From the NCBI GenBank assembly GCA_021773645.1, contig JAJFJU010000011.1, positions 1 through 64,000 of the forward strand: a stretch of DNA of 64,000 bases. The letters are read 5' to 3'. Below the pieces are notes generated by a model. That model saw nothing but the letters and a program-made list of their open reading frames with translations, had not been told where the DNA came from and made no database searches. Below are positions 23,651-51,506 of the stretch, piece by piece. How positions within the stretch are numbered: position 1 is the stretch's first letter; each line of letters begins with the position of its first letter. The stretch is from Gammaproteobacteria bacterium. Lineage in GTDB: Bacteria > Pseudomonadota > Gammaproteobacteria > HK1. The position numbers and the translations under genes were made by a program.

Positions 23651-24583
23651 TTAGCTCGCACTCACTGGTTTCGTATTCCATCGATTCAACGCAAAACGGA
23701 GTAGAAAACGCCCAGGTGTACGATCCCATGGTGTAAAGCGTGGCAACTGGTAACGTTGCTGCCTTTTGGAGGCGACTCCGCGCTCCGTAGTAACCGCACC
23801 GATAAAGCCTAATTCCTTCACAAGGTCGACGTGCAACCGTGTGTAGTCCTTACCAGCCTTACCGTTAGGATAGGCAAAAACCTGCACTGGCTTGCCGATG
23901 AGTGCCTCAAGCCTTTCCTTCCCTTCAACGATCTCCCGCCGTGCTTCATCCACTGCCACCGACGCAAGGATAGGATGATTAACGGTATGTCCCCCGATCT
24001 CCATTCCAGCAGCAGCCAAGGCCCTCACTTGGGTGCTGGTCATCATCAATCCATCTGGTAGGCTCGTTCCTGAGATATTGGCTATGGCTTCAACTTTATC
24101 CAACCGTTCGACAGGGTCCTGATGTTTAAGCACGGTCAAAAGATGAGAAATTGCAGCCAGTTGTTCTTTTTGAGACATAATAGGAAAAAGGCCAAGGCCC
24201 AACTCCCACAAATCGAGTTCTTCCCTTTCTGAACCACGAATCGCTTCGATTAGCGTATCGTTCCACATTCGTCCACCATCCAGAAACCCGGTGGCAATGA
24301 AAAATGTTGCAACTAACCCCTGCTTTTTTAGAATAGGCAGCGCGACCTCATAATTATTGGCATAGCCATCGTCAAACGTGATACAGACCGCGCGTGAAGG
24401 TAATTGGCCTGCCCGAAGTAGCTCGATGGCCTTCTCTAATGGCAACACATTGTAGTACTTCCGCAATAGTTCCAAATGCCACTTGAATGTGCTGGCATCA
24501 ATGGCATCCGGAAATAGAAGATCCCGCTGCGCTTCTATCCCGTGGTAGTTGAGTATTGATAAACTTCTTTTTCGAAATACCAT
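23651..24583 (-). CDS. Polysaccharide deacetylase (NodB domain)
   Basis: This 310-residue protein has the NodB-type motif TFDDGYANN (about residues 69-77) and the metal-binding pair in GGHTVNHP (about 197-204), as well as AYPNGK. It probably removes N-acetyl groups from the polymer, acting in the cytoplasm or periplasm; no signal peptide is evident. This is a second deacetylase, distinct in sequence from the XrtA-type one at 41211. It is separated from the sulfatase-like gene upstream by a MITE-like element. Confidence 0.82.
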   Translation of the reverse strand: MVFRKRSLSILNYHGIEAQRDLLFPDAIDASTFKWHLELLRKYYNVLPLEKAIELLRAGQLPSRAVCITFDDGYANNYEVALPILKKQGLVATFFIATGFLDGGRMWNDTLIEAIRGSEREELDLWELGLGLFPIMSQKEQLAAISHLLTVLKHQDPVERLDKVEAIANISGTSLPDGLMMTSTQVRALAAAGMEIGGHTVNHPILASVAVDEARREIVEGKERLEALIGKPVQVFAYPNGKAGKDYTRLHVDLVKELGFIGAVTTERGVASKRQQRYQLPRFTPWDRTPGRFLLRFALNRWNTKPVSAS

Positions 24584-24831: not shown

Positions 24832-26583
24832 TTACGGCTTGGATTCATATAGAAAGTTTTCAAATTTATATTTTTCAACGAATTTCATTGCTAAATCAAA
24901 ACGCACAGGATCGTGGGAAAGACATCGCATCACACCTGCGAGAATACGGGCCGGCGTCGCGTATGTCGGTGTGTAGTGCTGTAGTTGTTCGGCCGTGCAG
25001 CCGGTTTTATTGACTAAGACAGTGGCCAAGATACCGTGCTGGTCCTGCACTACGAATGCTGGGTCATCATAGAATGAAATAGTTTGACTCAGATAAGGCC
25101 CATGGTCTCCGATAACGAGCAATATCGAAGGCCTGCTATTTTCGCTGACGAGTTTTCGCAAGTGCTCCATGATCTTGGCAACTTCTGCAGATTTTCTACG
25201 ATAACTTTCCGAAAACCGCGCCAACGCTTCTCGGTCCGAGCTACGGTAATTTGATTTGACGTGACCAATCGGATTGCCAATATAGTGGAGCGTAAACACT
25301 GGTTTGGCCCTAGGAGTAGGGGTGGCACGCTGCACAGCATCTATTACAGTGTTAGGCCATATCTCCACGGGACCAGCGCTTTCAGTTAGGGATGCCACAT
25401 CGCAAAACCCGAAAAACTTAAGGGGATTTTTGGTGGCTAGCGCACATAACGTGCTGTGACGACCTGCCCCCACCTCTACCTCCGTCGGTTGGTATGAATC
25501 AACAAATGGGCCTTTTGTGCCAAAATATAGATTATTAAATCCCGTCGAAATGGTATAGCCGTTAGCATGTAAAATATTGCTAACAGGACCATCCTTGCGT
25601 CCGGCAAAATAGCCTGAATTACTGCCAACATCAGTATTGGCGAGTCGCATCAAGCTATTGAGAGATGCTTTGGTCGGAGCCTTGCTTGCAAATGCGTTCT
25701 TGAAGGTCAACACCCCGTCACGATCCAATACTTTCGCGTAAGGCAAGTCAGACAGCCCCATGTATTTCTTTGTGAGGGCGATAGGTGCTAGCCCATCGAA
25801 TGAAACGATGTGAATGTTGGGCCTAGTACGGAATGTTATTTCGTCCAAATACGTCATAGGATTCGTGCTTTCCGGTACCGTCGACGAAGGAAGTGCAATC
25901 CCGGCTAAAGGCGCTATGAACGTCAGCACTAACACCGTATTAACACGGCGCAAAAGAACAATTCGTTTGCTAACGCTCAGGAAAATTATCCATAAACACA
26001 AAAATGCAAAAATCATAAAGGCCGCACGAATGAAAGCAGGCTGTATAAGAAACTTACCCATCAAAGATAGATAGAGCGCATAGAGATTGAATAGGCTTAA
26101 CGCCGCCATCAGGGGCAGAGGGAACCACCACTGCTGAGATCGTGAGAGAGTGATATAGACGATCAAAGCTTCCAGCGATAACACGAGACTAACCCAGGCA
26201 AATAATGGAACCCAGAACTGGCTACTAAGTTCGTTAATTACCGCAGACAATGATGCCACGAAGCAATTCAAAAAGATGAGCACTACCAGCAGAATAGTCC
26301 CGCGCATTACGGCGGTGTTTGACGAAACGTTGAGACGTGTATCGGCTCGCATCAAGCGCCAGATAAGAAATGCCATCGCGGCGATACCAAAGGTGATCGA
26401 CACACCAAAGATTTGCTCATACCGAGTTATGTTCGTGAGCCGGAAGATCGGATCTGAAGCTTTGTCGGGAAAGCTCCTGTAATTAATAGCTACATAGCTG
26501 AGGTAAAGGGCGTAAATAATGCCAAGTTGGCCAAGAAAGGTCTTGAATTGATTGCGTAAAAATAAAAGAATCGCCTGGAGCAT
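24832..26583 (-). CDS. Sulfatase-fold membrane enzyme (LtaS/EptA-like)
   Basis: This 583-residue protein has about five to seven N-terminal membrane segments (to residue 230) and a C-terminal sulfatase/alkaline-phosphatase domain. Metal-site motifs are IVSFDGLAP (Asp263) and VIGDHGPYL near residue 497. APTKASLNSL (Thr304) is a candidate nucleophile, a Thr as in phosphoethanolamine and lipoteichoic acid transferases. It probably transfers a phospho-group on the periplasmic side. It lies within a module with a glycerophosphotransferase-like and a YidC-like gene. Substrate is inferred, not shown. Confidence 0.75.
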   Translation of the reverse strand: MLQAILLFLRNQFKTFLGQLGIIYALYLSYVAINYRSFPDKASDPIFRLTNITRYEQIFGVSITFGIAAMAFLIWRLMRADTRLNVSSNTAVMRGTILLVVLIFLNCFVASLSAVINELSSQFWVPLFAWVSLVLSLEALIVYITLSRSQQWWFPLPLMAALSLFNLYALYLSLMGKFLIQPAFIRAAFMIFAFLCLWIIFLSVSKRIVLLRRVNTVLVLTFIAPLAGIALPSSTVPESTNPMTYLDEITFRTRPNIHIVSFDGLAPIALTKKYMGLSDLPYAKVLDRDGVLTFKNAFASKAPTKASLNSLMRLANTDVGSNSGYFAGRKDGPVSNILHANGYTISTGFNNLYFGTKGPFVDSYQPTEVEVGAGRHSTLCALATKNPLKFFGFCDVASLTESAGPVEIWPNTVIDAVQRATPTPRAKPVFTLHYIGNPIGHVKSNYRSSDREALARFSESYRRKSAEVAKIMEHLRKLVSENSRPSILLVIGDHGPYLSQTISFYDDPAFVVQDQHGILATVLVNKTGCTAEQLQHYTPTYATPARILAGVMRCLSHDPVRFDLAMKFVEKYKFENFLYESKP

Positions 26584-26678: not shown

Positions 26679-28133
26679 TTACATCGGGGCAAAGGGAGTG
26701 TCTATCTCAAGCAATGAATTCTGGCCAGGCATCTTTACCAGAAACGGCAGCTTCCGTGTTCTTAATCCATCGTATTGCTCGGTGAATCTCCATTCGTGGT
26801 CAGCAGTAAGAACAATAGCAGTTGAATCCCATAACCCGGCCTGCTCGAGCGCTCTGCGTAGTTCGCCAAACAGCCGGTCGGCCAGGACTAGATTACCGAA
26901 ACAACCTGTTTTTGACGTATTAAATAACGTCAGATCCTGAGTTCGCTCGTCATAAATATCGGGGCCGTGGGGAACTGATGCATGTATATAGACCAAATCA
27001 TAGGTCGGGTTCGCGACCACGTGCGGTGCGCGCTCCATGAAATGCTTATAGGTCTGTACGCCATTGATGCGCCGGAATACCGGGGTAATCCCCGTCAAAT
27101 GTGAAACCATCTCGTGCACTACCGAGGTCGTGGCTTGAATAGCGTAGGTATTGATGCCATACCACGAACAATAAGAATAATCGGGATAAAACACTCGGCA
27201 GTACGGATAATAAATGCCCATGATGGCGGTGGTCGCACCGAGCCGCTTTTCCTCGCTAATAACCGTAGACTTATCCGTCCAGGAAAATAGGTTTTTCTCC
27301 TTATCAGCGTCGAGATAGAAGCCAAGAGTTTCCTTTCTCCTCGTCCCACTTTCCTTGACGTACTGACCGAACAGGTACGATGGGATGGCTTCGCCGGTGC
27401 TTTTTGAGCGGCTTTCAGCATTATTTGAGAATATCGATTCATTCCGGAATCGCTGTAGCTCAGGGAGCTCGATCCCGGGTGGGCGATCCAGAAATGCGAG
27501 CCGCAGAGCTAGCTCATCAAAGATTAGCCATATAACTCTTTGAGTAGGAGCAGTAGTGCCCGGAACAGCTTTTCTCTGTACCTCATCAGGAATGTTTGCC
27601 TCAGCATTCGATAACGTGACCATCTGCCAGGTCGCATTACCAACGGTTATCAGCCCGAATGGGGCAAGCACCAACAGGGCCGTAGCCACAAGCTTCGTTA
27701 CCAGAGTCAGTCGGAAAGACAATAGATAGATCGCTCCCAAGGCTATTCCAGTCCCAATCAATACAGCGATCCAGGCATTGTCCTGCAGCGAATAGATGGT
27801 GCTGGAGTCGATATGAAGCGCCATGCGAGCGAAGTTCAATGGAAATACGAGCAAACCAAGAAATACCATGCGGGAAATTTGTTCCAGCCAATGGACACCC
27901 AACTTTCGAATCATCCATAGACAACCCCATAGAATGAAAGTCCAGCCGAGCAAGTTCAACAACACAGCGTAGTAGCTCTGCAGGGTATAGCTCGGCATCC
28001 AGTACAGATCGCTGCTGTTGGCAAAAACGAGTTCCCGCCATACTGTAAGAAAGCTAAGGTTAACCAGGGAGAAGCAAACAACGAGGTCGTACGCTGCCCG
28101 ATTTTTATATTGCGTGCCCAATGCCGTAATCAA
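26679..28133 (-). CDS. Second sulfatase-fold membrane enzyme
   Basis: This 484-residue protein has N-terminal membrane segments (about 1-165) and a sulfatase-like domain with WLIFDELA (Asp206), candidate nucleophile Thr246 in SKSTGEAIPSYL, and LTADHEWR near residue 448. The last third is shorter than in many LtaS relatives, and the frame ends in FAPM without obvious loss. It differs strongly from the enzyme at 24832. The small AYLDPGTGS protein gene ends 6 bp upstream of its start codon, so the two may form a pair. Confidence 0.72.
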   Translation of the reverse strand: MITALGTQYKNRAAYDLVVCFSLVNLSFLTVWRELVFANSSDLYWMPSYTLQSYYAVLLNLLGWTFILWGCLWMIRKLGVHWLEQISRMVFLGLLVFPLNFARMALHIDSSTIYSLQDNAWIAVLIGTGIALGAIYLLSFRLTLVTKLVATALLVLAPFGLITVGNATWQMVTLSNAEANIPDEVQRKAVPGTTAPTQRVIWLIFDELALRLAFLDRPPGIELPELQRFRNESIFSNNAESRSKSTGEAIPSYLFGQYVKESGTRRKETLGFYLDADKEKNLFSWTDKSTVISEEKRLGATTAIMGIYYPYCRVFYPDYSYCSWYGINTYAIQATTSVVHEMVSHLTGITPVFRRINGVQTYKHFMERAPHVVANPTYDLVYIHASVPHGPDIYDERTQDLTLFNTSKTGCFGNLVLADRLFGELRRALEQAGLWDSTAIVLTADHEWRFTEQYDGLRTRKLPFLVKMPGQNSLLEIDTPFAPM

Positions 28134-28477: not shown

Positions 28478-29260
28478 TTAGCTATAGGGTTCCTGCTCAT
28501 ACCATCTCTGGAACTCCTCAAGTGCATTCTCGTAGTCCTGCTCAGTGTCGATCTCCTTCCACCCTCTCTCGATGATAATGCAATGCACTGGCACTCCCAG
28601 ATCAATCATGTCCTGAAGCAAGTCGGCTACGTAAGCTTTCTCGAAGGTCTTCGCGCGCTGGAACGGCTTGCCCAAAAAAAGTGCTTGTGCCCGATCATAG
28701 TGCAGCTTGAAGATCTCACAGCCACGCGGAGAGAGTTTCAGCATTCCGATGAACTCGCCGTGCACATCCATCTCATTTGCAATAACCTGGCCGATTTTTA
28801 CGACCTGATTATTCGCATCAAAAATAACATTCTCCGCTTCCGAAGGTGGATGCTCGGACCGCCCCTTATATGTCTCGCGCCAATCAATATCCACGACCAC
28901 AGAGATATCGTGCTGGGACTGCAATACACGTTCCACTACATGATTTGCAAATAGGATGTCCGAGTATGAGATCAGTACATCTCCCTCAAGTGCATCCTTC
29001 GCGCACAACAAGGAACCAAGCACATTGGTGCTCTTATAATCATCGTTATCGTGATAATGAATATCGGGGTAATTAATCATCTCCTTCTTGTAACCACGTA
29101 CGATATGAACATCATCCACACCATTTTGTTTGAAGGTATTGATCTGTCTTTGCAGGATCGTGCGCTCACCTACTTTAAGCATGCATTTGGGAAGTTCCTC
29201 GGTGTATCCCTTGAGCCGGCTCCCGAGCCCCGCCGCCGTTATGATTGCCTTAATCCCCAT
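28478..29260 (-). CDS. CTP-type nucleotidyltransferase (LicC-like)
   Basis: This 260-residue protein starts at the ATG at 29260, preceded by CAGGAG. AAGLGSRLKGYTEELPKCML (residues 9-28) is the nucleotidyltransferase signature of the phosphocholine/sugar-phosphate cytidylyltransferase group. It probably makes a CDP-alcohol such as CDP-choline, CDP-ethanolamine or CDP-glycerol in the cytoplasm. The adjacent glycerophosphotransferase-like gene is a natural user of such a product. A nucleotide-sugar role is an alternative. Confidence 0.78.
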   Translation of the reverse strand: MGIKAIITAAGLGSRLKGYTEELPKCMLKVGERTILQRQINTFKQNGVDDVHIVRGYKKEMINYPDIHYHDNDDYKSTNVLGSLLCAKDALEGDVLISYSDILFANHVVERVLQSQHDISVVVDIDWRETYKGRSEHPPSEAENVIFDANNQVVKIGQVIANEMDVHGEFIGMLKLSPRGCEIFKLHYDRAQALFLGKPFQRAKTFEKAYVADLLQDMIDLGVPVHCIIIERGWKEIDTEQDYENALEEFQRWYEQEPYS

Positions 29261-29332
29261 GGTTTTTCTCCTGAATACTGATTTCAACAACCCCCGATTT
29301 TATTCATCGGGATAATCAATCACGTACAGACC

Positions 29333-30994
29333 TTAGCCCGAACTCGTATCTGCAGCACGCTGGTCCCACTTAACCACCATCGCTTGCTGCATTGATTGTA
29401 GTAAGTTTGTACAAAGCCAATAGAGCATCAGCGCCGCTGGAAAATTGTAGAGTAAAAAGAAAAATACTAACGCCATGATGCCCATTGCCTTGCGCTGCCC
29501 GTTTACCTGCTTGGGGTCCGCGCCAGGGGCCGACTGTCCGCTCACGAGAACTTGGGATGCAGCCATCAATACCGGCAGCAAATTCAGGTAAGGGCCGAAA
29601 TATGGAATCTCGAAACCAAAGGAAAGGAGCCGGTCGGGCAGCGCAAGATCTTCCATCCAGAGGAAGCCAACACCCCGAAGCTCGAAGGATTCACCGATGA
29701 CGAAATATAGACCGATAAAGATTGGAATCTGAATTAGCACCCATAAGCAGCCTGTCAATGGTGCCAACATGCTCATACCATGCTCCTCATAAAGCTGCTT
29801 TGTTGCGAGATGTTTCTTATCAAAGTCGCCCTTGAACTCCTCATTAATTCGTTGAAGTGCCGGTTTGATCCTTGCCTGTTCAAGCTGGGTCCTGGCCTGA
29901 TGGCGCTGCGCGGCTATTCCAACCGGCACCAGAATCAATCGAATAACCACCGCGAGTGAGATGAGGGCAAGCCCCCAATTCTGGAGGAGAAGATACAGGG
30001 CACTCAATAACCACTGAATCCCAAGGCACAGCCACTGCATCCAGAACCAGAGATCAGCAAAAAATAACTGCTTGAGTTCTGAGTCCTCTGCGAACGCCGC
30101 AGCCGTCTTTGGTCCCGCATAGATTCGATAGGCTAGCACTGCGGATTCACCAGGTGCGATAGATATCTGTGAGACCGCAAGTTCGAGTTGCATCATCTGG
30201 GTCGCAGGGTCTGTGTCGGACTGTAGCTCTGATATCGGGCTCAGGATCGCCGACTCAAGGCGCCCTGCACTATCACCAGATTTCAAAGCGAGCAAGAAGT
30301 ACCTGTTTTCGATACCCGCCCACTCAATCCCTGCCGGCGTGAAGCGATCTGATTCCAAACCATCCTCTGGCGGCTCTACGGGCACCACCCCGTCAGCCGA
30401 GAGCAACACACCACGAGTAAGGGAGGGTGCGACCGCCTCCAATGATCCAAGCCGTGGGCCGAGTCGGATAGCAAAGTTGTTTTTGCCATCGCCTAAGGTA
30501 ACGGTACGATCTCCCTCATTACGCAATTCGATTGAATGCCCAACGGCGTATCTGTCTCCGGCAAACCGATAGGTCTTGATGATGCGAAGTCCATCGTCAA
30601 GGCGCGGTGAGGTAAACCGAAGTACCTCCGTTGATCCCTCCGTGGTACGGGCAAGGGCATAGCCTGCTCGATTAACGATTTCGGAAAGGTCGACATCGCC
30701 CTGAGACAGCACGAGGTCTAGAGGCCGACCCGAGTCTGACATTGTGATCGCTGGGTCGATTAGGGTTTCCCGGGCCATACCGCCCGGTCTGGGGATACGC
30801 AATCGCCACTCAACGGGAACTCCACCCTCAAGAGTGAACATCACCATGTGAGGACCGTGTTCGATCGAGGTGAAATTCTCGTCGTCCCCGAGCGCGACCC
30901 GCCACAGCGAAAGCACGATGAGGGCAAAGCACACTAGAATTGTGCGGGCTAGGATCTGCACTATATTAAGGCCGATGAGTGGTCGTGTGGTCAT
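29333..30994 (-). CDS. YidC/Oxa1-family membrane insertase paralogue
   Basis: This 553-residue protein is a full-length Gram-negative-type YidC. It has an N-terminal membrane segment, a periplasmic beta domain (about residues 45-300) and a C-terminal insertase core of about five membrane segments with the conserved groove arginine (Arg352 in LAVVIRLILVPVG). The housekeeping yidC normally sits with rnpA and mnmE, so this is almost certainly an additional copy. It overlaps the glycerophosphotransferase-like gene by 4 bp (ATGA) and is probably translated with it. The periplasmic domain is diverged. It may insert the membrane enzymes of this module. Confidence 0.9.
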   Translation of the reverse strand: MTTRPLIGLNIVQILARTILVCFALIVLSLWRVALGDDENFTSIEHGPHMVMFTLEGGVPVEWRLRIPRPGGMARETLIDPAITMSDSGRPLDLVLSQGDVDLSEIVNRAGYALARTTEGSTEVLRFTSPRLDDGLRIIKTYRFAGDRYAVGHSIELRNEGDRTVTLGDGKNNFAIRLGPRLGSLEAVAPSLTRGVLLSADGVVPVEPPEDGLESDRFTPAGIEWAGIENRYFLLALKSGDSAGRLESAILSPISELQSDTDPATQMMQLELAVSQISIAPGESAVLAYRIYAGPKTAAAFAEDSELKQLFFADLWFWMQWLCLGIQWLLSALYLLLQNWGLALISLAVVIRLILVPVGIAAQRHQARTQLEQARIKPALQRINEEFKGDFDKKHLATKQLYEEHGMSMLAPLTGCLWVLIQIPIFIGLYFVIGESFELRGVGFLWMEDLALPDRLLSFGFEIPYFGPYLNLLPVLMAASQVLVSGQSAPGADPKQVNGQRKAMGIMALVFFFLLYNFPAALMLYWLCTNLLQSMQQAMVVKWDQRAADTSSG

Positions 30995-32148
30995 CGCTCG
31001 TCCCGGATTCGATCAGACAACTCTGCCAGAATCCGGGCACCAACCTCGCCACTTTGGCCCACATTGTAGACCCACGCCTCACGTGCAGCGCGAATGCGCT
31101 CGCGATACTCCTCGGCCCCAGTGCGCAGGAACTCGATCTGGTCGCCTGCATCATCAATATCCTCTACCGCCAGCACTAACCCGATCTCCTTACGCAACTG
31201 GTCTTCGAGCGGCAGGCAGTCAATACACTCGTAATCCGGATTATTCACTTTGCGGGGAACATCGATAAACAGCACTGGGCGCTCGAGACCGAAGGCAAAC
31301 TCCAGGGCAGCCCCGGACCAATCACTCACCATCACGTGAGAGTTATAGAAGGAATCATGGGATCGGATATCCTCTTCATGTCGATAGCCCTCCTGCCCCT
31401 CAAATTTCTGGCGGATTCGATCAATGGCGTCGGGATTGGTTTTTCTCGTATTGGGATGAGGTCGCAGATATACCTCAAATCCCGCGCGTAGCAATGAACC
31501 CACCAGCTGCTCACCATGAAGCTCAAGCATCCCCTTAGGTCCCCACGAGGGAGCCACCAACACCCGGGTACGATCTTCCCCTGGAGACTCTCGGCGTGCA
31601 CCTTCCTCAATGATGCTATCCAAGGGCCCGTATCCGTGCTTGAAGAGCTCCTTGGATTTTAAACCACGCGCCTCTTCCCAGGCTCGTATCTCGGTCTCAT
31701 GATGTGGGCCAGCACAAAGAACACCATCAAAGTGATCGAAAGCGCCAGTCCTATAGACCATGTGGGTACTGACGATAGAGTGCTGCAGATACGCATAGTA
31801 GACCGGATACTTAGAGCGCTTCAGATGGAAGGTCTCCAGATCTGGCATGGTCATAACCAACATGCCCGCTTCCAGATTCTTGAAGAACGCGATCAGTGTA
31901 GATGTCGACTCCATATAAAAGGCAGACAATCCGGGAATTTCTTCGCTAAGCAGGGGATCATCGGCATCGTTCGTCACATAACACAAAGAACGTCCCCGGT
32001 CTTCAAGCAGGCGCTTCATGACCGGCCAGAGATATATGGAGTACCCCGCACCCTCGGAATAGAAAAAAATCGATCTGTCTTCCTGTGAGAGGTTCTTAAA
32101 GCGCGAGTATTCACGCCACGATCGGATGAATTTACTGAATAACATCAC
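30991..32148 (-). CDS. CDP-glycerol glycerophosphotransferase-like protein
   Basis: This 385-residue protein has the TagB/TagF-type GT-B fold: VLVAPSWGPKG near residue 196, VYLRPHPN near 226, and MVSDWSGAALEFAFGLERP near 274. These are the features of glycerophosphotransferases that build wall teichoic acid. In this Gram-negative locus it may add glycerol- or ribitol-phosphate, or a related phosphoalcohol, to the polymer. It is the first gene of the module 24832-32148; the YidC-like gene starts within its last codons. A MITE-like element overlaps its first base pairs. Confidence 0.8.
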   Translation of the reverse strand: MMLFSKFIRSWREYSRFKNLSQEDRSIFFYSEGAGYSIYLWPVMKRLLEDRGRSLCYVTNDADDPLLSEEIPGLSAFYMESTSTLIAFFKNLEAGMLVMTMPDLETFHLKRSKYPVYYAYLQHSIVSTHMVYRTGAFDHFDGVLCAGPHHETEIRAWEEARGLKSKELFKHGYGPLDSIIEEGARRESPGEDRTRVLVAPSWGPKGMLELHGEQLVGSLLRAGFEVYLRPHPNTRKTNPDAIDRIRQKFEGQEGYRHEEDIRSHDSFYNSHVMVSDWSGAALEFAFGLERPVLFIDVPRKVNNPDYECIDCLPLEDQLRKEIGLVLAVEDIDDAGDQIEFLRTGAEEYRERIRAAREAWVYNVGQSGEVGARILAELSDRIRDER

Positions 32149-32363
32149 TGTTGTCCCGTTAATCGAAGACCCGTCATCCCGGGCTTGAACCGGGATCCAG
32201 CAAACGCTTTAAAAACCTGGATTCCGGCTCAGCAAAAAACGCTGTCCGGAATGACGGCGTTAATTTGTTGGCATCATGTCTAGCTAACTAACATTGGAGA
32301 TTGAACTAGCCTTTGCCAGCTAGGCTTCTGACCAATTTCTCCCGAAGTTAACGGGACAGCAGT
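32147..32363 (+). mobile_element. MITE-like element, copy 6
   Basis: Terminal repeats ACTGTTGTCCCGTTAATC (32147-32164) and AGTTAACGGGACAGCAGT (32346-32363) enclose 180 bp with a clear hairpin of the type CCCGTCATCCCGGGCTTGAACC / GGATTCCGGCTCAGC...GCTGTCCGGAATGACGG. It is the best-conserved copy. It marks the upstream boundary of the phosphopolymer-like module. Confidence 0.88.
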
Positions 32364-34207
32364 GGCTTTTCATGAATCGTCTGTTGAAAGTCTTCCAGAA
32401 TCATCATTACCCAAATTAACCCGCCATAGAACCCCGGCGTCTCCTGAAGCCATTTATTTCTTATCTCATCGATAAAATCTGCCCGAATGATATTTCTTGA
32501 TTTCAGGCTCTCCAGAGAATCAAAGGCAAGTTCCCTGAACTTTCCTGGAGCCTGCATCCAGGGACCCACCGGTAGTCCAAAGCCATGTTTCTTCTTGTGG
32601 ATGATTTCTTCAGGCAGAAAATCCCTCAGAGCTTCCTTGTAAAAATACCTCAGCTTGAATCCTTTTAGCTTTAGGTCAATCGGCAATCGGGTTGAGAACT
32701 CGACCAAAGCATCCGACATAAAGGGATAGGCGGCATTGATATCCGCCAAATCACACATGCCGGTCACTTTTGGCAGGTCGTTATCTGCCAGGGTGTATTT
32801 ATAATCCAGGGCTAACATACGATTGAGCATGGTATTCGCCTCAGGAGCATTATAGGTTCGGCGGCGCTCATTCAAAGGTGTAGCTTGATCTATAGATGTC
32901 AGGAAATCGGGTTCAAATATATTATTAGCCCCAAACCAATGGATGAAGTTATAGGATTCCATCCGGTCCGGCATGGGTTCACGAGCCTGCTCCACATAGC
33001 GCCATGCTTTTCTTATGGGCCAGATAGCGTCTCGTGCAGGAAACTTCTCTAGCGTGGGCTCAATTAGGTTTCTCTGAACGCCTTTAGGGATCTTGTCGTA
33101 CCAGGAGAACAGTTTCTGTTTCGCATAGCGTTCATTCCCACCAAATAGCTCATCTCCTCCATCACCACCCATTATTCGATCATTGCCATCTGCACGTGCC
33201 AGCTTTGCGCAGTAATAGGCGGGAATAACCGATGAATTCCCGAATGGCTGCCCATAGACCCCGATAATTTTCGGCACGAGATTTACGATATCATCCGGGG
33301 TTACGAAGTATTCGTGGTGGTCTGTCTGAAAATGCTCGGCTGCAATATGTGCGTAGTGGGTTTCATCATAGCCCTTGGCATCAAAGCCGATGGAGTAGGT
33401 GCGTGCAGGTTCTCCCGTTACCTCGCCTAGATATCCGGCAAGGGTGGATGAGTCGGTACCCCCACTCAAAAAGCAGCTAAGGCGATCTCCATGCTTGAGT
33501 TCCCTTTTTACTGAATCACCTATTAGAGAACGAAACTCATCCTTATAGTCCGCTACGCTCCTGTTTAATTTCTCATCGGAATACTTGAGGTGCCAATAAC
33601 TGGATATGGATGTATTACCATTCTCAAACTTTATGCAGGTTCCCGGATCTAGCCGCATCACTTGCTTATAGATAGTGCGCGGAGCAGGAATGACGTGAAA
33701 ATACAGGTAGTTGTATATGGCCTGTGGATCCACATCTAAAGTAAGAAATGGGTTGTCTACGAAGCTATTGAGGTGACTGGAAAAGACGATGCCGTTCTCA
33801 ACGAATGCGTAGTAAAGAGGACATATGGCAGCCCTGTCGGTGGCGATAAGTGCCTTTCGCTTAACTATATCGAGGATGACCAGGGAGAAGGGGCCCGAGA
33901 TGTGATCCAGCACGCCGTCACCGAGGCGACGATGGCCCCTCAGGATGGCAGGTCCTCCGCCGTGGGCTCTCTCATCCTTGGCGAGCTCTGGGGTATTGAA
34001 GTCTGGCGTGCCAGATAACGCAGCGGCATATTCAGCATCTGCAGTTAGATAGTTTCCCCAAGGTGCCACTACCGCTATGCCCCAGTCTTCGCCCGTGGCT
34101 GTGGTTATCTCTGAGACATCATTCGTATCCAAGGATTGGGCCATCTTGGTTACAACAAGCTCGCTGGAGATTTCCCCCGGAGGTTGGAGTCCGATAAATC
34201 CGCACAT
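32348..34207 (-). CDS. Asparagine synthase-like amidotransferase, degenerate glutaminase
   Basis: This 619-residue protein starts at the ATG at 34207 so that Cys2 becomes the N-terminal nucleophile (MCGFIGL). The synthetase domain is complete, with SGGTDSS near residue 252. The glutaminase domain lacks the usual RGPD and YNGEIYN motifs seen in the related enzyme at 37108. It may therefore use ammonia, or act as a ligase with poor glutamine use. The role is probably amide formation on a uronic acid of the polymer or on the precursor. Its C-terminal end lies next to a MITE-like element. Confidence 0.8.
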   Translation of the reverse strand: MCGFIGLQPPGEISSELVVTKMAQSLDTNDVSEITTATGEDWGIAVVAPWGNYLTADAEYAAALSGTPDFNTPELAKDERAHGGGPAILRGHRRLGDGVLDHISGPFSLVILDIVKRKALIATDRAAICPLYYAFVENGIVFSSHLNSFVDNPFLTLDVDPQAIYNYLYFHVIPAPRTIYKQVMRLDPGTCIKFENGNTSISSYWHLKYSDEKLNRSVADYKDEFRSLIGDSVKRELKHGDRLSCFLSGGTDSSTLAGYLGEVTGEPARTYSIGFDAKGYDETHYAHIAAEHFQTDHHEYFVTPDDIVNLVPKIIGVYGQPFGNSSVIPAYYCAKLARADGNDRIMGGDGGDELFGGNERYAKQKLFSWYDKIPKGVQRNLIEPTLEKFPARDAIWPIRKAWRYVEQAREPMPDRMESYNFIHWFGANNIFEPDFLTSIDQATPLNERRRTYNAPEANTMLNRMLALDYKYTLADNDLPKVTGMCDLADINAAYPFMSDALVEFSTRLPIDLKLKGFKLRYFYKEALRDFLPEEIIHKKKHGFGLPVGPWMQAPGKFRELAFDSLESLKSRNIIRADFIDEIRNKWLQETPGFYGGLIWVMMILEDFQQTIHEKPLLSR

Positions 34208-34580
34208 TCCTGTCATTTGATATGGAGCCTGATTGTGTGATCTGGATTATTCGTTGCGCTCACCCTACGGGCCGCCCTTTGGGCGTTCAACGCGCTGCGT
34301 GGTTTTGTGATGCGGGATGGGGAGGGGAATGGGCGGAGCATACGCGCCTCCCCGTCATCCCGGTCAAGCGGAGCGCCATAGCTGGGATCCAAGGAACGGA
34401 GCCACGGCCAAGCGGGTATCGTTGGTCTGTAGAGATCTATTTTCACTGCCTTTGTTTCCTGGATTCCCGCTTCCGCGGGAATGACGGTGGTTTTGTGATA
34501 CAGGGCAACCCCCCAGGAATGACGGTAGTTTTATAATATGGGGCGGGCTGTACGGAAATGATCAAATAAACGGCGTTTGC
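34208..34580. other. Gene-free stretch made of dispersed repeats
   Basis: Between two - strand genes this region holds the GGATTATTCG...CGGGCCGCCCTTT element (34243-34300), a CCCGTCATCCCGGTC...GGGATCC element (34351-34397) and CCTGGATTCCCGCTTCCGCGG with AATGACGG (34459-34486). No open reading frame with family resemblance was found. Confidence 0.65.
34243..34300. repeat. Dispersed repeat, GGATTATTCG...GCGCTGCG type
   Basis: Same element as at 39251-39310, where it lies in reverse orientation; a diverged copy is at 1903. It contains the palindrome GGGCCGCCCTTTGGGCG. Confidence 0.7.
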
Positions 34581-35902: not shown

Positions 35903-37111
35903 TTAATCTGAAACTGAGACATCCGCCTTGTAGCTCATTGAACTCTTTAGAATAATTTTTTCAAACAGTACTTGCTGACCTCGACTGGTCGCCTCCCAAT
36001 CGAAAGTTTCCGCATAACGTCGAGTAGCCATCGGCTTTGGATAGGCTCCAAAAAGTTTTGCTACAGCCTCAACAATCCCCTGTGGACTTCGCTCTGACAA
36101 CAATACCCCCGCTTCAGGGGCCTGCACTACCTCAGGAATCCCCCATACGCTGGAGGCTATGACCGGGGTGCCGCAGGCCATAGACTCAAGCAAGACATTG
36201 GGCCAACCCTCCCGGCTAGAGGCCAACACCAGCGCATCGGCAGCACGATAATAGTCTAGCAACTCATGCTGCTGCACTGTGGGGATAAAACGCACCCGTT
36301 CAGCCAAACCGAGTTTATTTGCCAAGGCCCTGAGTCGCCGGTCTTCCTCACCGCTACCGACGATCACCAAGTCTATATCGTCGAGTTCAGCGAGGGCCTG
36401 GATGACCAGTTCGTGTCCCTTTAACTTTCGTAGAGCGCCAACACAAAGTAGTGTTTTATGTCTAAATCCCAGCCTCTTCCTCGCTTCATCCCGGTCTCCC
36501 GGACAGAATAATTCGAGGTCCACACCATTGCGCAAGGTGTTGAGCTTGGCGGGTTCCACACCCAAATCAGCAAGTGTCTGCTCCAACGCCCGGCAAACAC
36601 TAATAACGGCTGCAGCCTGACGTGCTGCCCATAGAATCATGCGCCGAGGAAGGCGGTAGGCTGGATAGGTATGAATATCGGTGCCACGTGCCGTTATTAC
36701 CACCGGCTTTCCTAATTGCTTACCTAATATTGCGGCAGCCACACCGTCCGGATAGAAAAAGTGGGCATCTATGAGATCAAAATCATAGCCTTCACGAATC
36801 ATGCGTTTTAGCGTAGGGGCCACGGCCAAGGCCATCAGCAAGGGGGCCACACTCATACCAATTTTTGGGATCACCGGATATCGGGGATGCAGTATCTCTA
36901 TCCCACCCCGCTTTTCCACTAGCGGTACACGAGCAAAGCCCGCATAACTACCGAAGGCCAGGTTTGTAGAGGGAAACCAGGGAACTGGCGCAACGACCCG
37001 GGCCTCGACCCCCGTATGGGCGATCAGTTGACGCAGGCGATGCTCAACGAACAGGCCATGGGAGGGCTGAGCGCTGTTTGGATAGAGGGTACTGAAAGTA
37101 AGTATTTTCAC
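35903..37111 (-). CDS. GT4-family glycosyltransferase
   Basis: This 402-residue GT-B enzyme begins MKILTFSTLYPNSAQPSHGLF and has NGVDLELF near residue 202 and EGWPNVLLESMACGTPVIAS near 303. It resembles TuaC-like and XrtA-cluster GT4 enzymes. Its start overlaps the amidotransferase stop by 4 bp (ATGA), so these two genes and probably the ligase at 34581 are cotranscribed. Confidence 0.87.
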   Translation of the reverse strand: MKILTFSTLYPNSAQPSHGLFVEHRLRQLIAHTGVEARVVAPVPWFPSTNLAFGSYAGFARVPLVEKRGGIEILHPRYPVIPKIGMSVAPLLMALAVAPTLKRMIREGYDFDLIDAHFFYPDGVAAAILGKQLGKPVVITARGTDIHTYPAYRLPRRMILWAARQAAAVISVCRALEQTLADLGVEPAKLNTLRNGVDLELFCPGDRDEARKRLGFRHKTLLCVGALRKLKGHELVIQALAELDDIDLVIVGSGEEDRRLRALANKLGLAERVRFIPTVQQHELLDYYRAADALVLASSREGWPNVLLESMACGTPVIASSVWGIPEVVQAPEAGVLLSERSPQGIVEAVAKLFGAYPKPMATRRYAETFDWEATSRGQQVLFEKIILKSSMSYKADVSVSD

Positions 37112-39018
37112 GCCACGCGCTGCGAACTGTCTACAAGGCCACGCTGGAAGCCCTCAAACATCAGCAAAGACCAAATAGGTGCACTATGGTCACGAAGACC
37201 ACTCTGATGTTCATCTACCAGACGTTTTAGATAAGCCGTATCAAACAGGCCTGATTCAGCCAACGAAGGGCCAAGGATAGACTCGCGTACCCGCTCCCGC
37301 AGATCTTCCCGAAACCAACGCGCCAACGGTACTGCAAAGCCCATCTTGGGACGATAGAGAATGTCCTTGGGCAGATGCTTTTCCAAGCCCTTTTTGAAGA
37401 TATATTTCCCCTCCCGATGATGCAGCTTAAAGCTTGGCGGCAGACTGGAAATCCATTCCACCAATTCGTGATCGAGAATGGGGACGCGCACCTCAAGAGA
37501 GTGGGCCATGCTGGCACGATCCACCTTGGTCAGGATGTCGCCCGGGAGATAAGTCTTGAAATCGAGATACTGCACCAATGACAGCGGAGCATCTGTAGGA
37601 GCACGAGCCGCATGTTCTCGAAATACCTCTATGGCCTGATAGCCCTGCAACTCACGCTTTAATTCTGGACTGAATAGACGCTGACGCAGGTTGTCCGGTA
37701 GCAAACTAATGGTATGAAAATAGCCATTTATAGAGTCCCGCGCACAACCCTGAAAGGTACTCTTGGCACGGAATATTTTCGGCGCCCAATCCGCCTTCGG
37801 ATACACCGAGCCAAGGAAACCGAATAACGGCCGACGTATGGGTCCGGGGATATGGGCGCGAGCCATTTCCTCGTACATATGCCAGCGGTAACGCCGGTAG
37901 CCCGCGAGATTCTCATCGCCACCATCACCTGAAAGGGCAACCGTCACCTGCTCACGTGCAGACTCACACAAGCGGTAGGTAGGCATAGCTGAGCTATCCG
38001 CATAAGGCTCGTCGTAGACGCCTATGAGTTTGTCTATCAGATCGAAGTCATCCGGCTCCACCTGCCGGACCCGATGCTCGGTGGCGAATAGCTTCGCCAC
38101 CTGATCCGCGTGACTGGCCTCGTTATAGGCGGGATCCCCGAATGAAATGGTGCTGGTTTGAACTGGCTTGTCGTCAAGCTCCGCCATCATGGCGACCACC
38201 GCACTGGAATCGACCCCGCCCGAGAGAAAGGCACCGAGAGGTACTTCCGCAACCAGGCGAATGCGTACCGCTTCACGCAGGCGAGAAATGAGCTCTTCCT
38301 GTGCTTCCTCGAAGTCAGTTACTCCCGCATCTTTAAATGGCAGGTCCCAGTATTGACGCGGCTCACGTGCCTTTTCACCACGACGGAGGCTCAAAACATA
38401 ACCGGGTGAAAGCTTTCTGGCCAGCCGATAAATAGTCTTTGGCTCTGGTACGTAACCGTAGGCAAAGTAGTCCTCTACTGCCTGGGGCTCCAGCTCACGG
38501 GAAAAGTCGGGATGCTCGGTCAGAGCCTTTAACTCGGAGCCAAAAATGCAGTGGCCATCGGGAAGCAAAGCGTAGTAAAGCGGCTTGATGCCCAACCTGT
38601 CGCGGGCGAGAAAAAGGGTCTGTTGGTTACGATCCCATATAGCAAAGGCAAACATACCGCGGAAACGCTGCACGCAGTCCTCGCCCCACTCTTCCCAGGC
38701 ATGAACAATAACTTCGGTATCACAGTGAGTTCTGAAGGTGTGCCCCAAAGCCTGCAGCTCAACGGCAAGTTCAGCGAAGTTATAGATCTCACCGTTGTAG
38801 ACCACGACCACCGAGTGATCTTCATTAAACAAGGGTTGGTGGCCGTTAGAGAGGTCGATGATGGACAAACGACGGTGCCCAAGGCCCACACCCGGCTCCA
38901 GATGCAAACCACCGTCATCCGGACCACGATGATGGAGCGACTCGTTCATACGATGGAGCACACCACGGTCTATCGGGCGACGCTCACGCAGATCAACTAT
39001 TCCTGTCAGGCCACACAT
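37108..39018 (-). CDS. XrtA-associated class II amidotransferase
   Basis: This 636-residue asparagine synthase-like enzyme has Cys2 (MCGLTGI), RGPDDGG near residue 32, VYNGEIYN near 73, and the ATP-binding SGGVDSS near 266. Both glutaminase and synthetase sites look intact. It matches the exosortase A system-associated amidotransferase found in most XrtA polysaccharide loci. It probably forms an amide on a carboxyl group of the polymer precursor. The following glycosyltransferase gene overlaps its end by 4 bp. Confidence 0.9.
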   Translation of the reverse strand: MCGLTGIVDLRERRPIDRGVLHRMNESLHHRGPDDGGLHLEPGVGLGHRRLSIIDLSNGHQPLFNEDHSVVVVYNGEIYNFAELAVELQALGHTFRTHCDTEVIVHAWEEWGEDCVQRFRGMFAFAIWDRNQQTLFLARDRLGIKPLYYALLPDGHCIFGSELKALTEHPDFSRELEPQAVEDYFAYGYVPEPKTIYRLARKLSPGYVLSLRRGEKAREPRQYWDLPFKDAGVTDFEEAQEELISRLREAVRIRLVAEVPLGAFLSGGVDSSAVVAMMAELDDKPVQTSTISFGDPAYNEASHADQVAKLFATEHRVRQVEPDDFDLIDKLIGVYDEPYADSSAMPTYRLCESAREQVTVALSGDGGDENLAGYRRYRWHMYEEMARAHIPGPIRRPLFGFLGSVYPKADWAPKIFRAKSTFQGCARDSINGYFHTISLLPDNLRQRLFSPELKRELQGYQAIEVFREHAARAPTDAPLSLVQYLDFKTYLPGDILTKVDRASMAHSLEVRVPILDHELVEWISSLPPSFKLHHREGKYIFKKGLEKHLPKDILYRPKMGFAVPLARWFREDLRERVRESILGPSLAESGLFDTAYLKRLVDEHQSGLRDHSAPIWSLLMFEGFQRGLVDSSQRVA

Positions 39019-49880: not shown

Positions 49881-51506
49881 CTAAACTTTATCCGGAATGG
49901 CGGCCACAGGCCGTCCTACATCAGCCCCATTAGAAATGTAGGGCGGAGCATGTCCGCCGGACGATAGCTGGCGCAAGGTGCGGGCTAATACCGGCATCAG
50001 AGCAGCCCCAGCATCCCGTAATACTTTTCGTGCTTCTTCCCGTTCACCGTGAACCGCGGTGGACAAGGCGATCACGGCAGCCCCCGGTTGGCCACTGAGC
50101 AGCCCCCATACCTGGAACAATTTCGCCTCATAATCACTGGCGGTCAGACGGCCGCCCGCATAATACCAGTGCCAGATAAGTCGGCTACCCTGCCCCCGGG
50201 TGGATTTTAATTCGGTTTCTTTCACCTTCAGGCTTGTACCATTTTCCAGGCGAATCACTCCCTCCCTGCGAGCACTCCGCCGCCACGCCGTGCCGTCGTA
50301 AAGGGCATTGGTATCATTGACGAGCTCCTTTCCCTGTCGCTGCGAGGCGTAATAGGCCAGATAGAGCTCGATCTCCGCCGCTTCGCGATGATACGCACCG
50401 TGTGCCTCTCCATCGGCTCCGATGTATTGCGGCCGCCAATTTTGGGCAATCTCCACCGAGCCTGTCCAGGGCCCTGAAACTTGAGGGGCAACGATCATAA
50501 TTTTCTCAGCCCCGGCGCCCCCCATCTCACGCCAGTAGGCGGCAGCGGGCCCCAGGCTGGCAATAAACAGCGCCAATACGGACAAACCAGCGATTCCCCT
50601 GGCACCATAGCGGGAACCCTGAAATCGGGGTCCCGGGGCCTTTTTATCCCACTCCTTTTCAGCCAACCAGGCTCCGAAGAGAAACAGCGGTACCAGTGTC
50701 GCCGCAAACATGAACCAGCCGAAGGTAATATGGTCACGTACCAGCCAGTGCTGCATACCACCGTAGTGGCCGGCGGCCACGATGATAATCACCCGAAGCC
50801 AATTGAATACCACCGCACAGACGATGCTGATAGTGAAAAACAACACTCCACGCCACAGCGCCTGAAAATTAAGATAGGCGTATAAGCCTCCCACTGACAT
50901 CGTGGCCAGCAGAAATCTGAGCCCCGCACACACCTCCTCCACCACAAACCGGCCTTCTGGAATAGACAGGTAATAGCCCTCCAGCAGCACGGGGATATTC
51001 ATGTTCTGTAATACCCGGGTCGAGGCTAACGCAGTATTCATCTGTAACACCGGAATAAAGGCGGACCACACAGGCACCGCAAGCACCAGATAGGCGATGG
51101 GAAAGAGCAGCAACCAAAGAGCACGCCAGCCGAGAAATGTGAGCACGATGCCGGCAGGCAAGGCCACCAGCATCAATTGCATTCCCACTTCCACCCCAGC
51201 TACGTGGGCAATAAACCACCCAAAACCCAATATCCCCAGACCGGCCAGCCCAAGGATGCTTGGCCTTGGGGGGATTCGAGCAATTTCCATCCGCCGCTCC
51301 CACACCAGATAGAGACCGATAGGCAACACCAGCAGCCCATGTCCGTAAGGTGCCGAATGCAACCAGGTATCCCACAGGGTCGCTACTGTTTGGCCATATA
51401 TGAAGGGCAGAATCCCAAGGATTCCGGCAATCGCCCACAAGTCTAGGCGCCTGGAATTCACACCCATGGCCCGATTCGGGCTTAATGGTGCACTCACCAT
51501 ACTCAT
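49881..51506 (-). CDS. xrtA: Exosortase A fused to EpsI domain
   Basis: This 541-residue membrane protein has about eight membrane segments and the exosortase catalytic residues Cys193 (VEEVCAGLRF), Arg238 (FNWLRVI) and His259 (DHITFG). The exosortase part ends near residue 295 and is followed by a periplasmic EpsI-like (DUF3485) domain (about 330-490). It should cleave PEP-CTERM proteins at the membrane. The last 30 residues, from about RTLRQLSSGG, are encoded by a dispersed GTAGGGCGG palindrome. It overlaps the PrsR stop by 4 bp. Confidence 0.93.
   Translation of the reverse strand: MSMVSAPLSPNRAMGVNSRRLDLWAIAGILGILPFIYGQTVATLWDTWLHSAPYGHGLLVLPIGLYLVWERRMEIARIPPRPSILGLAGLGILGFGWFIAHVAGVEVGMQLMLVALPAGIVLTFLGWRALWLLLFPIAYLVLAVPVWSAFIPVLQMNTALASTRVLQNMNIPVLLEGYYLSIPEGRFVVEEVCAGLRFLLATMSVGGLYAYLNFQALWRGVLFFTISIVCAVVFNWLRVIIIVAAGHYGGMQHWLVRDHITFGWFMFAATLVPLFLFGAWLAEKEWDKKAPGPRFQGSRYGARGIAGLSVLALFIASLGPAAAYWREMGGAGAEKIMIVAPQVSGPWTGSVEIAQNWRPQYIGADGEAHGAYHREAAEIELYLAYYASQRQGKELVNDTNALYDGTAWRRSARREGVIRLENGTSLKVKETELKSTRGQGSRLIWHWYYAGGRLTASDYEAKLFQVWGLLSGQPGAAVIALSTAVHGEREEARKVLRDAGAALMPVLARTLRQLSSGGHAPPYISNGADVGRPVAAIPDKV
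49895..49962. repeat. GTAGGGCGG palindrome inside the 3' end of xrtA
   Basis: GGCGGCCACAGGCCGTCCTACA and TGTAGGGCGGAGCATGTCCGCC form an imperfect palindrome of the dispersed family. It lies inside the last codons of the xrtA frame and so encodes the C-terminal tail of that protein. Confidence 0.75.

Follow-up and report, generated by a model that had tools for sequence, protein, structure and literature searches.

A second YidC in an exosortase A locus, a probable fixed membrane subunit of a surface-modification machine

A gammaproteobacterial genome was found to encode, within an exopolysaccharide locus, a second YidC, here called YidC2 (the name denotes paralogs of this type and not the Gram-positive YidC2). 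Comparison of genomes shows two YidC copies, a separate clan for the second one, its repeated association, by linkage and by co-occurrence, with a small AYLDPGTG membrane protein and with a glycerophosphotransferase-like protein (GlyT), and two kinds of gene fusion within this set. On these comparisons, YidC2 is probably a fixed subunit of a surface-modification machine and not a spare general insertase, and its partner enzymes would put groups that bear phosphate or phosphonate onto the cell surface. A scramblase-like step performed by YidC2 is a more tentative proposal, made by analogy. Taken as a whole, the description of YidC2 as a dedicated, horizontally spread paralog that is a fixed membrane subunit of such a machine, scramblase-like step included, seems to us evenly balanced between right and wrong.

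The window, i.e., the whole stretch of 64,000 nucleotides that was analysed, is an exosortase A (XrtA/PEP-CTERM) exopolysaccharide locus. In addition to exosortase A itself (Table 1), a chain length determinant, an export protein, the PrsK kinase, and the XrtA-associated ligase, decarboxylase, and hydrolase pass their NCBIfam cut-offs, with TIGR03097/3098/3099/3100 among the families matched. The window also holds a pair of XrtA-system amidotransferase paralogs, one typical and one diverged. The YidC2 gene is a single open frame of 553 codons, opposite a plus strand rich in stops. Its product matched PF02096 (60KD_IMP) with 129 bits (cut-off 35) and PF14849 (YidC_periplas) with 45 bits (cut-off 24), the latter covering the profile in part (positions 85-259 of 283). 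The insertase core lies at about residues 316-545, and the groove arginine is residue 352. The initial annotation had described a full-length Gram-negative YidC, not a short fragment, set between a glycerophosphotransferase and a cytidylyltransferase gene; the length, both domains above cut-off, the Glyphos_transf match upstream (with a 4-bp overlap between YidC2 and GlyT), and the PF12804 match downstream agree with this description.

Table 1 Features of the window around YidC2 and the exosortase A gene
Feature	Coordinates	Strand	Remarks
Polysaccharide deacetylase	23651..24583	minus	kept in genus
Sulfatase-fold membrane protein 1	24832..26583	minus	PF00884 23.6 bits, below cut-off 25
Sulfatase-fold membrane protein 2	26679..28133	minus	PF00884 22.9 bits, below cut-off 25; DH metal motif kept
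Small AYLDPGTG membrane protein, 91 aa	28140..28415	minus	YLDPGTGS loop
LicC/PntC-like CTP-dependent cytidylyltransferase	28478..29290	minus	PF12804; downstream neighbour of YidC2
YidC2, second YidC	29333..30994	minus	553 aa, periplasmic domain + insertase core
GlyT, CDP-glycerol glycerophosphotransferase-like	30991..32148	minus	Glyphos_transf 22.7 bits, barely above cut-off 22.1
Diverged paralog of XrtA-system amidotransferase	32348..34216	minus	281 bits; next gene upstream of GlyT; kept in genus
Typical XrtA-system amidotransferase	37108..39018		TIGR03108, 1073 bits
Exosortase A (XrtA)	49881..51506	minus	exosort_XrtA 240.6 bits, cut-off 208

The AYLDPGTG protein consists of a signal-like hydrophobic start, the YLDPGTGS loop, one clear membrane helix, and a basic and then acidic tail. 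In sulfatase-fold protein 1, residues D263, T304, D493, and H494 are invariant across the genus. The gene for sulfatase-fold protein 2 is intact in G000 and G002 and reduced to a 74-aa remnant in G001 (L035 7846-8070), so the set can do without this gene. The quality of the AlphaFold models was too low for use, both for YidC2 (with three relatives; mean pLDDT 40.3, pTM 0.32), which therefore gains no structural support, and for sulfatase-fold protein 1 (with two relatives; mean pLDDT 45.4, pTM 0.42).

The genome containing the window (28 contigs, 2.49 Mb, 99.92% complete) has two 60KD_IMP matches above cut-off. The other one is the housekeeping yidC, located on a separate contig (L003 4860-6518) in the order dnaA, rpmH, rnpA, yidD, yidC, mnmE, with gene names assigned by ORF sizes and order. 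The proposal that the window gene sits outside the usual yidC locus was thus borne out: the genome has two YidC genes, and the rpmH-rnpA-yidD-yidC-mnmE setting is absent around YidC2. The two proteins of this genome share ~31% identity. Within the genus, the periplasmic part of YidC2 is 55-63% identical and the core 84-87%, as expected from the earlier remark that the periplasmic domain had diverged more than the core; the corresponding values for housekeeping YidC are 83-84% and 93-96%. With dN/dS of ~0.14-0.18 in three pairs, YidC2 is under purifying selection, though changing faster than the housekeeping copy (0.06-0.07).

A phylogeny of the insertase core against housekeeping YidC, which had been suggested as a check, placed YidC2 outside all 64 housekeeping rows and away from the YidC of its own species. 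The outcome named beforehand as a refutation, a place inside the housekeeping clade of its species in a genome with a single copy, therefore did not arise. In this core-domain tree (76 rows, 216 columns), one split with support of 100/99 divides the 12 YidC2 rows from the housekeeping ones; the tree is unrooted with several long branches, its bootstrap had not settled (0.975), and its only housekeeping YidC from outside the phylum is that of Fibrobacterota. The housekeeping side includes the same-genome copies of G000, G001, G002, G113, G155, G211, G339, and the Chitinivibrionales genome. The tree omits partial matches and any locus that duplicates a gene already included, and it also omits L133 for its very long branch; in a quick tree to which it was added, L133 fell on the YidC2 side (split support 99). 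Comparison of the core sequences thus shows YidC2 to be a clan separate from housekeeping YidC.

YidC2 was present in all three genomes of the genus (G000, G001, G002) with 70-75% identity, kept gene order, and open frames; the genus is also represented by the MAGs OFTM50 and OFTM98. The 14 other members of the family that were examined (G003-G016) had one YidC match in 13 cases and none in one. Scanning GTDB genomes with the genus alignment recovered one further relative, in a Chitinivibrionales MAG (Fibrobacterota; 30% identity), and a sample spread evenly over the class (369 genomes) yielded five more second copies that outscored the housekeeping copy of their own genome (G360, G155, G211, G381, G370). 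Altogether, 13 of the 369 gammaproteobacterial genomes sampled, falling in 11 families, carry YidC2. This count starts from 14 genomes with two YidC matches, leaves out G308 (one gene split over two frames) and G208 (a rhodanese-YidC-PEP-synthase-like ORF), and adds a fragment at a contig end in G374. The G208 frame (L134, G208:C114, 5011-9384, minus strand) is 1458 aa long, contains a diverged YidC core (40 bits), and is unrelated to the AYLDPGTG set; by eye, two rhodanese-like domains precede the core and a PEP-synthase-like tail follows it. In a phylum sample (398 genomes, most of them complete), the window genome alone scored YidC2-like (725 bits; next 208 bits, with one match per genome), which makes the clan rare in that sample. 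The genus alignment found no YidC2 relative in IMG/VR. Among 72,556 plasmid records, 36 matched YidC2 at E <= 1e-12, all with <60% identity, and the 12 inspected showed 26-28%, the level of ordinary YidC; the YidC-sulfatase fusion described below matched only 22% (its YidC part), in 2 of the 72,556 records.

Profile searches for the AYLDPGTG protein matched 33 of the 369 class genomes at E <= 0.001, and 24 were trusted: nine weak matches (E above 1e-9) that had no neighbour family in common with the others were dropped, and two at ~3e-7 (G131, G057) were kept for their GlyT fusion or usual methyltransferase neighbour. All 13 YidC2 genomes contain the AYLDPGTG protein. Conversely, 11 of the 24 trusted genomes lack YidC2, so the AYLDPGTG protein does not always depend on it, a point that counts against a joint machine. 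GlyT was found in 11 genomes at E <= 1e-20, and YidC2 is present in 10 of these compared with 3 of the 358 others (G155, G124, G374). The sole GlyT genome with neither YidC2 nor AYLDPGTG is G356, whose relative (L159, G356:C12, 10181-11407) is a weaker match (1e-65) covering profile positions 112-377. Fisher tests of co-occurrence, with kinship ignored and G208 entered as YidC2 without AYLDPGTG, gave p values of 1e-16 and 3e-16, that for YidC2 with GlyT being ~3e-16; counting the genus once left the latter at 2e-13.

Linkage was assessed in 14 loci, those of the 13 genomes plus the Chitinivibrionales one. In 11 of them, the retrieved stretch that carries YidC2 also carries AYLDPGTG; in 10, a sulfatase-fold partner is on that stretch or in one protein with YidC2. 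The YidC2-AYLDPGTG linkage recurs in eight families of the class and in the Fibrobacterota MAG. Distant loci repeat parts of the set, namely AYLDPGTG, GlyT, a sulfatase-fold membrane protein, and a nucleotidyltransferase, not all of them in every locus. In L044, 4-bp overlaps connect the genes for GlyT, sulfatase, and YidC2, and DUF3413 accompanies the sulfatase fold in L044 and L040. In G211, AYLDPGTG-GlyT-sulfatase reaches the end of one contig and YidC2 begins near the end of another, which suggests that they are adjacent. Against a machine of fixed composition count the parts of G131 and G124, which are not all linked, and L041, where no sulfatase-fold gene was recognised. The GlyT relative of G356 and the two window sulfatase-fold proteins, whose scores fall short of the Pfam cut-off, speak in the same direction. 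A second setting of the AYLDPGTG protein involves a methyltransferase-like family with an FRDP motif (12 loci: L042, L107, L110-L114, L116-L118, L126, L133), with AYLDPGTG near in 11 and often a sulfatase-fold gene; three of these loci (L042, L113, L133) carry YidC2. In L133, the methyltransferase adjoins a short YidC core rather than AYLDPGTG. The co-occurrence thus ties YidC2 closely to GlyT and, in some cases only, to the methyltransferase setting.

In three genomes (G113, G339, G131), AYLDPGTG and GlyT are fused in long frames matched by the AYLDPGTG profile, and in the same genomes one frame joins a YidC core that lacks the periplasmic domain to membrane helices and, after them, a sulfatase-fold domain (830 aa in L119, 960 aa in L120, 945 aa in L132). 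Two of the latter fusions were scanned with Pfam, giving 85.8 and 92.7 bits for 60KD_IMP and 38.5 and 36.3 for Sulfatase, all above cut-off. Residues D582, T612/T619, D841, and H842 (L120 numbering), presumably the metal and nucleophile residues in view of the fold, are invariant in all three. The two fused genes adjoin in L119 and L120, with overlaps of 8 bp and 4 bp, so that four genes became two; in G131 they lie apart. Since the G339 genome is one contig, the fusion is no assembly join. Its distribution among relatives is patchy, with 1 of 115 genomes (G339) and 1 of 114 (G113), and 11 other genomes of G339's genus lack it. This absence and the placement of the Fibrobacterota YidC2 among the gammaproteobacterial ones are consistent with a surface locus that spread horizontally.

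The positively charged residue of the hydrophilic groove was Lys or Arg in 64 of 64 housekeeping rows and in 9 of 13 YidC2 rows, including Arg in the window copy. The fused forms have Asn, Asn, and Thr, and the short form of G124 has Ala. Loss of the charge in the fused forms fits a role other than ordinary insertion; its retention in all nine unfused YidC2 with a periplasmic part or remnant counts against the proposed machine.

The nature of the group handled by this set was approached through its activating enzyme. Among solved structures, the window cytidylyltransferase is closest to 1jyk (CTP:phosphocholine cytidylyltransferase, LicC; 4e-15), followed at 4e-8 by 6pd1, which we take to be the PntC structure of PMC6697681. 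The PEP mutase motif EDKX5NS occurs in 5 of the 13 YidC2 genomes (raw count). It is linked to the set in G370 (L045), G339 (L120), and G381 (L139/L044), where decarboxylase-like and transaminase-like genes stand in L139 just upstream of the L044 set, and lies outside the YidC2 locus in G211 and G113. The motif was absent from the window and from the inspected matches of its genome G000 (L141, L163), which counts against the machine as proposed, and was likewise absent among the inspected matches of G002, G360, G155, G124, and G374; in G155, G124, G374, and G211, inspection covered all but some weaker matches. G001 and G131 had no PF13714 match. Phosphonate would accordingly be one version only, and the window version is predicted to use a different CTP-activated group. 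The Pnt tailoring pathway (PMC6697681) activates aminoethylphosphonate with CTP for surface glycans and shares with the YidC2 sets the cytidylyltransferase families, the PepM linkage, and the surface-glycan target. Its clusters are marked by the PEP mutase motif, absent from the inspected matches of the window genome; the paper names LicD-like transferases, and its main text mentions no YidC, insertase, or sulfatase (PMC6697681).

How might these parts work together? In the reading that we set out here, which we consider possible, YidC2 would be a flippase or scramblase in phospho- or phosphonyl-glycan modification, with AYLDPGTG-GlyT loading on the inside and the sulfatase-fold enzyme working on the outside. 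First, the cytidylyltransferase (LicC/PntC-like in the window, PepM-linked elsewhere) would yield a CDP- or CMP-activated small group, candidates being phosphocholine, glycerol-phosphate, and aminoethylphosphonate. The AYLDPGTG protein would hold GlyT at the inner membrane face, where GlyT would pass the group to a lipid-borne or nascent glycan acceptor. YidC2 would then let the modified lipid-borne intermediate cross the membrane through the lipid-open hydrophilic groove of the YidC family, and an outward-facing sulfatase-fold enzyme would act on the glycan by transferring or trimming its phospho- or phosphonyl group. In the case of the window, the exopolysaccharide of the exosortase A locus would be decorated. 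A crossing between a cytosolic enzyme for CDP- or CMP-activated groups and an outward sulfatase fold would be needed, and a scramblase-like passage is favoured by the lipid-open groove, by the fusion that joins the groove to the outer enzyme, and by E. coli YidC, which scrambles glycerophospholipids in liposomes in vitro (PMC10491306). Such scrambling may, however, come incidentally with any protein that has a groove.

The serious alternative, and the main one, is a dedicated insertase or assembly chaperone that inserts AYLDPGTG or helps to assemble the multi-spanning sulfatase-fold protein, with no role in chemistry or transport. The AYLDPGTG protein accompanies every sampled YidC2, and its small size, signal-like start, short outer loop, single helix, and basic tail resemble substrates that need YidC only; M13 procoat, Pf3 coat, and ATP synthase subunit c are examples of small proteins that YidC inserts alone (PMC7618853). 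The groove charge retained in the nine longer unfused proteins speaks for the same function. We nevertheless regard it as somewhat unlikely: the 11 AYLDPGTG genomes without YidC2 presumably rely on the housekeeping copy, YidC2 is tied more closely to GlyT than to AYLDPGTG, and three genomes join the YidC core to a sulfatase fold without periplasmic domain or groove charge, when a catalytic inserter has no obvious gain from a one-to-one fusion with a single client. The initial annotation had argued for a specialised substrate such as these neighbours. Specialisation and the bond with the neighbours hold, given the second copy, the separate side of the tree, and the linkage in unrelated families; insertion of the neighbours as substrates is a candidate role only, and the fusions make them look like working partners in one machine.

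Fusions and co-occurrence as such indicate partnership and not transport. YidC2 might therefore be a stoichiometric partner that joins GlyT/AYLDPGTG to the sulfatase-fold enzyme and moves neither protein nor lipid, consistent with the missing groove charge of the fused forms. This appears improbable, as the core in the aligned rows retains its membrane helices, conserved motifs, and coiled-coil loop, beyond what a bare scaffold should need. Much less probable still is an ordinary extra housekeeping insertase, a recent duplicate or backup that came by chance to lie in an exopolysaccharide locus: both Gram-negative YidC domains are present, yet the 100/99 split with same-genome housekeeping copies on its opposite side contradicts this, as do the low identity between the two copies and the AYLDPGTG linkage across eight families and a second phylum. 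That the gene is decaying or linked by chance and currently has no role, to which the raised dN/dS could point, is a negligible prospect in view of purifying selection, open frames, synteny in all three genus genomes, and fusions elsewhere.

How does the fixed subunit proposed here compare with known systems? Housekeeping Gram-negative YidC of the YidC/Oxa1/Alb3 family (4utq, 3wvf) shares with the window protein the two domains, the core motifs, and the groove Lys/Arg. The YidC2 clan differs from it in locus, side of the tree, fixed glycan-gene partners, and sulfatase-fold fusion, in inserts within the coiled-coil loop and before the later core helices, and in several members also in a shrunken or lost periplasmic domain. 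The YidC1/YidC2 pair of Streptococcus mutans is likewise described as two YidC paralogs that share the work within a cell. Those are general insertases, whereas the second copy described here is bound to a single set of enzymes and includes the periplasmic domain of Gram-negative YidC. LtaS, EptA, and YejM (PbgA) combine membrane helices with a sulfatase fold as the partner proteins do, but the window proteins are too diverged for the Pfam cut-off. We take DUF3413 in L044 and L040 to be the membrane part of YejM/PbgA, and we know of no protein of these types that is fused to YidC or encoded together with it. E. coli YidC as a lipid scramblase is the model for the proposed crossing step, and the available part of its report describes no dedicated glycan-linked substrate or partner enzyme (PMC10491306). 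In the literature searched (titles and abstract beginnings, few subscription journals), no work links YidC to an exosortase, AYLDPGTG, phosphonate activation, or a sulfatase-fold partner, and a YidC clan wired to a set of surface-modification enzymes, with YidC-enzyme fusions, was not found in print.

YidC is regarded as a universal protein insertase. If the flippase or scramblase reading is true, a YidC fold would move a small-molecule or lipid-borne group instead of inserting a protein. The YidC2 clan and its fusions make it testable whether lipid scrambling by insertases is an in vitro side effect or has been used by evolution. They also offer a candidate route by which CDP- or CMP-activated decorations, including phosphonates, may reach the cell exterior, and they define a set of partners (AYLDPGTG, GlyT, sulfatase fold) for a small membrane protein that has no name. 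Together, this suggests that a membrane-insertion protein has been recruited for building the cell envelope.
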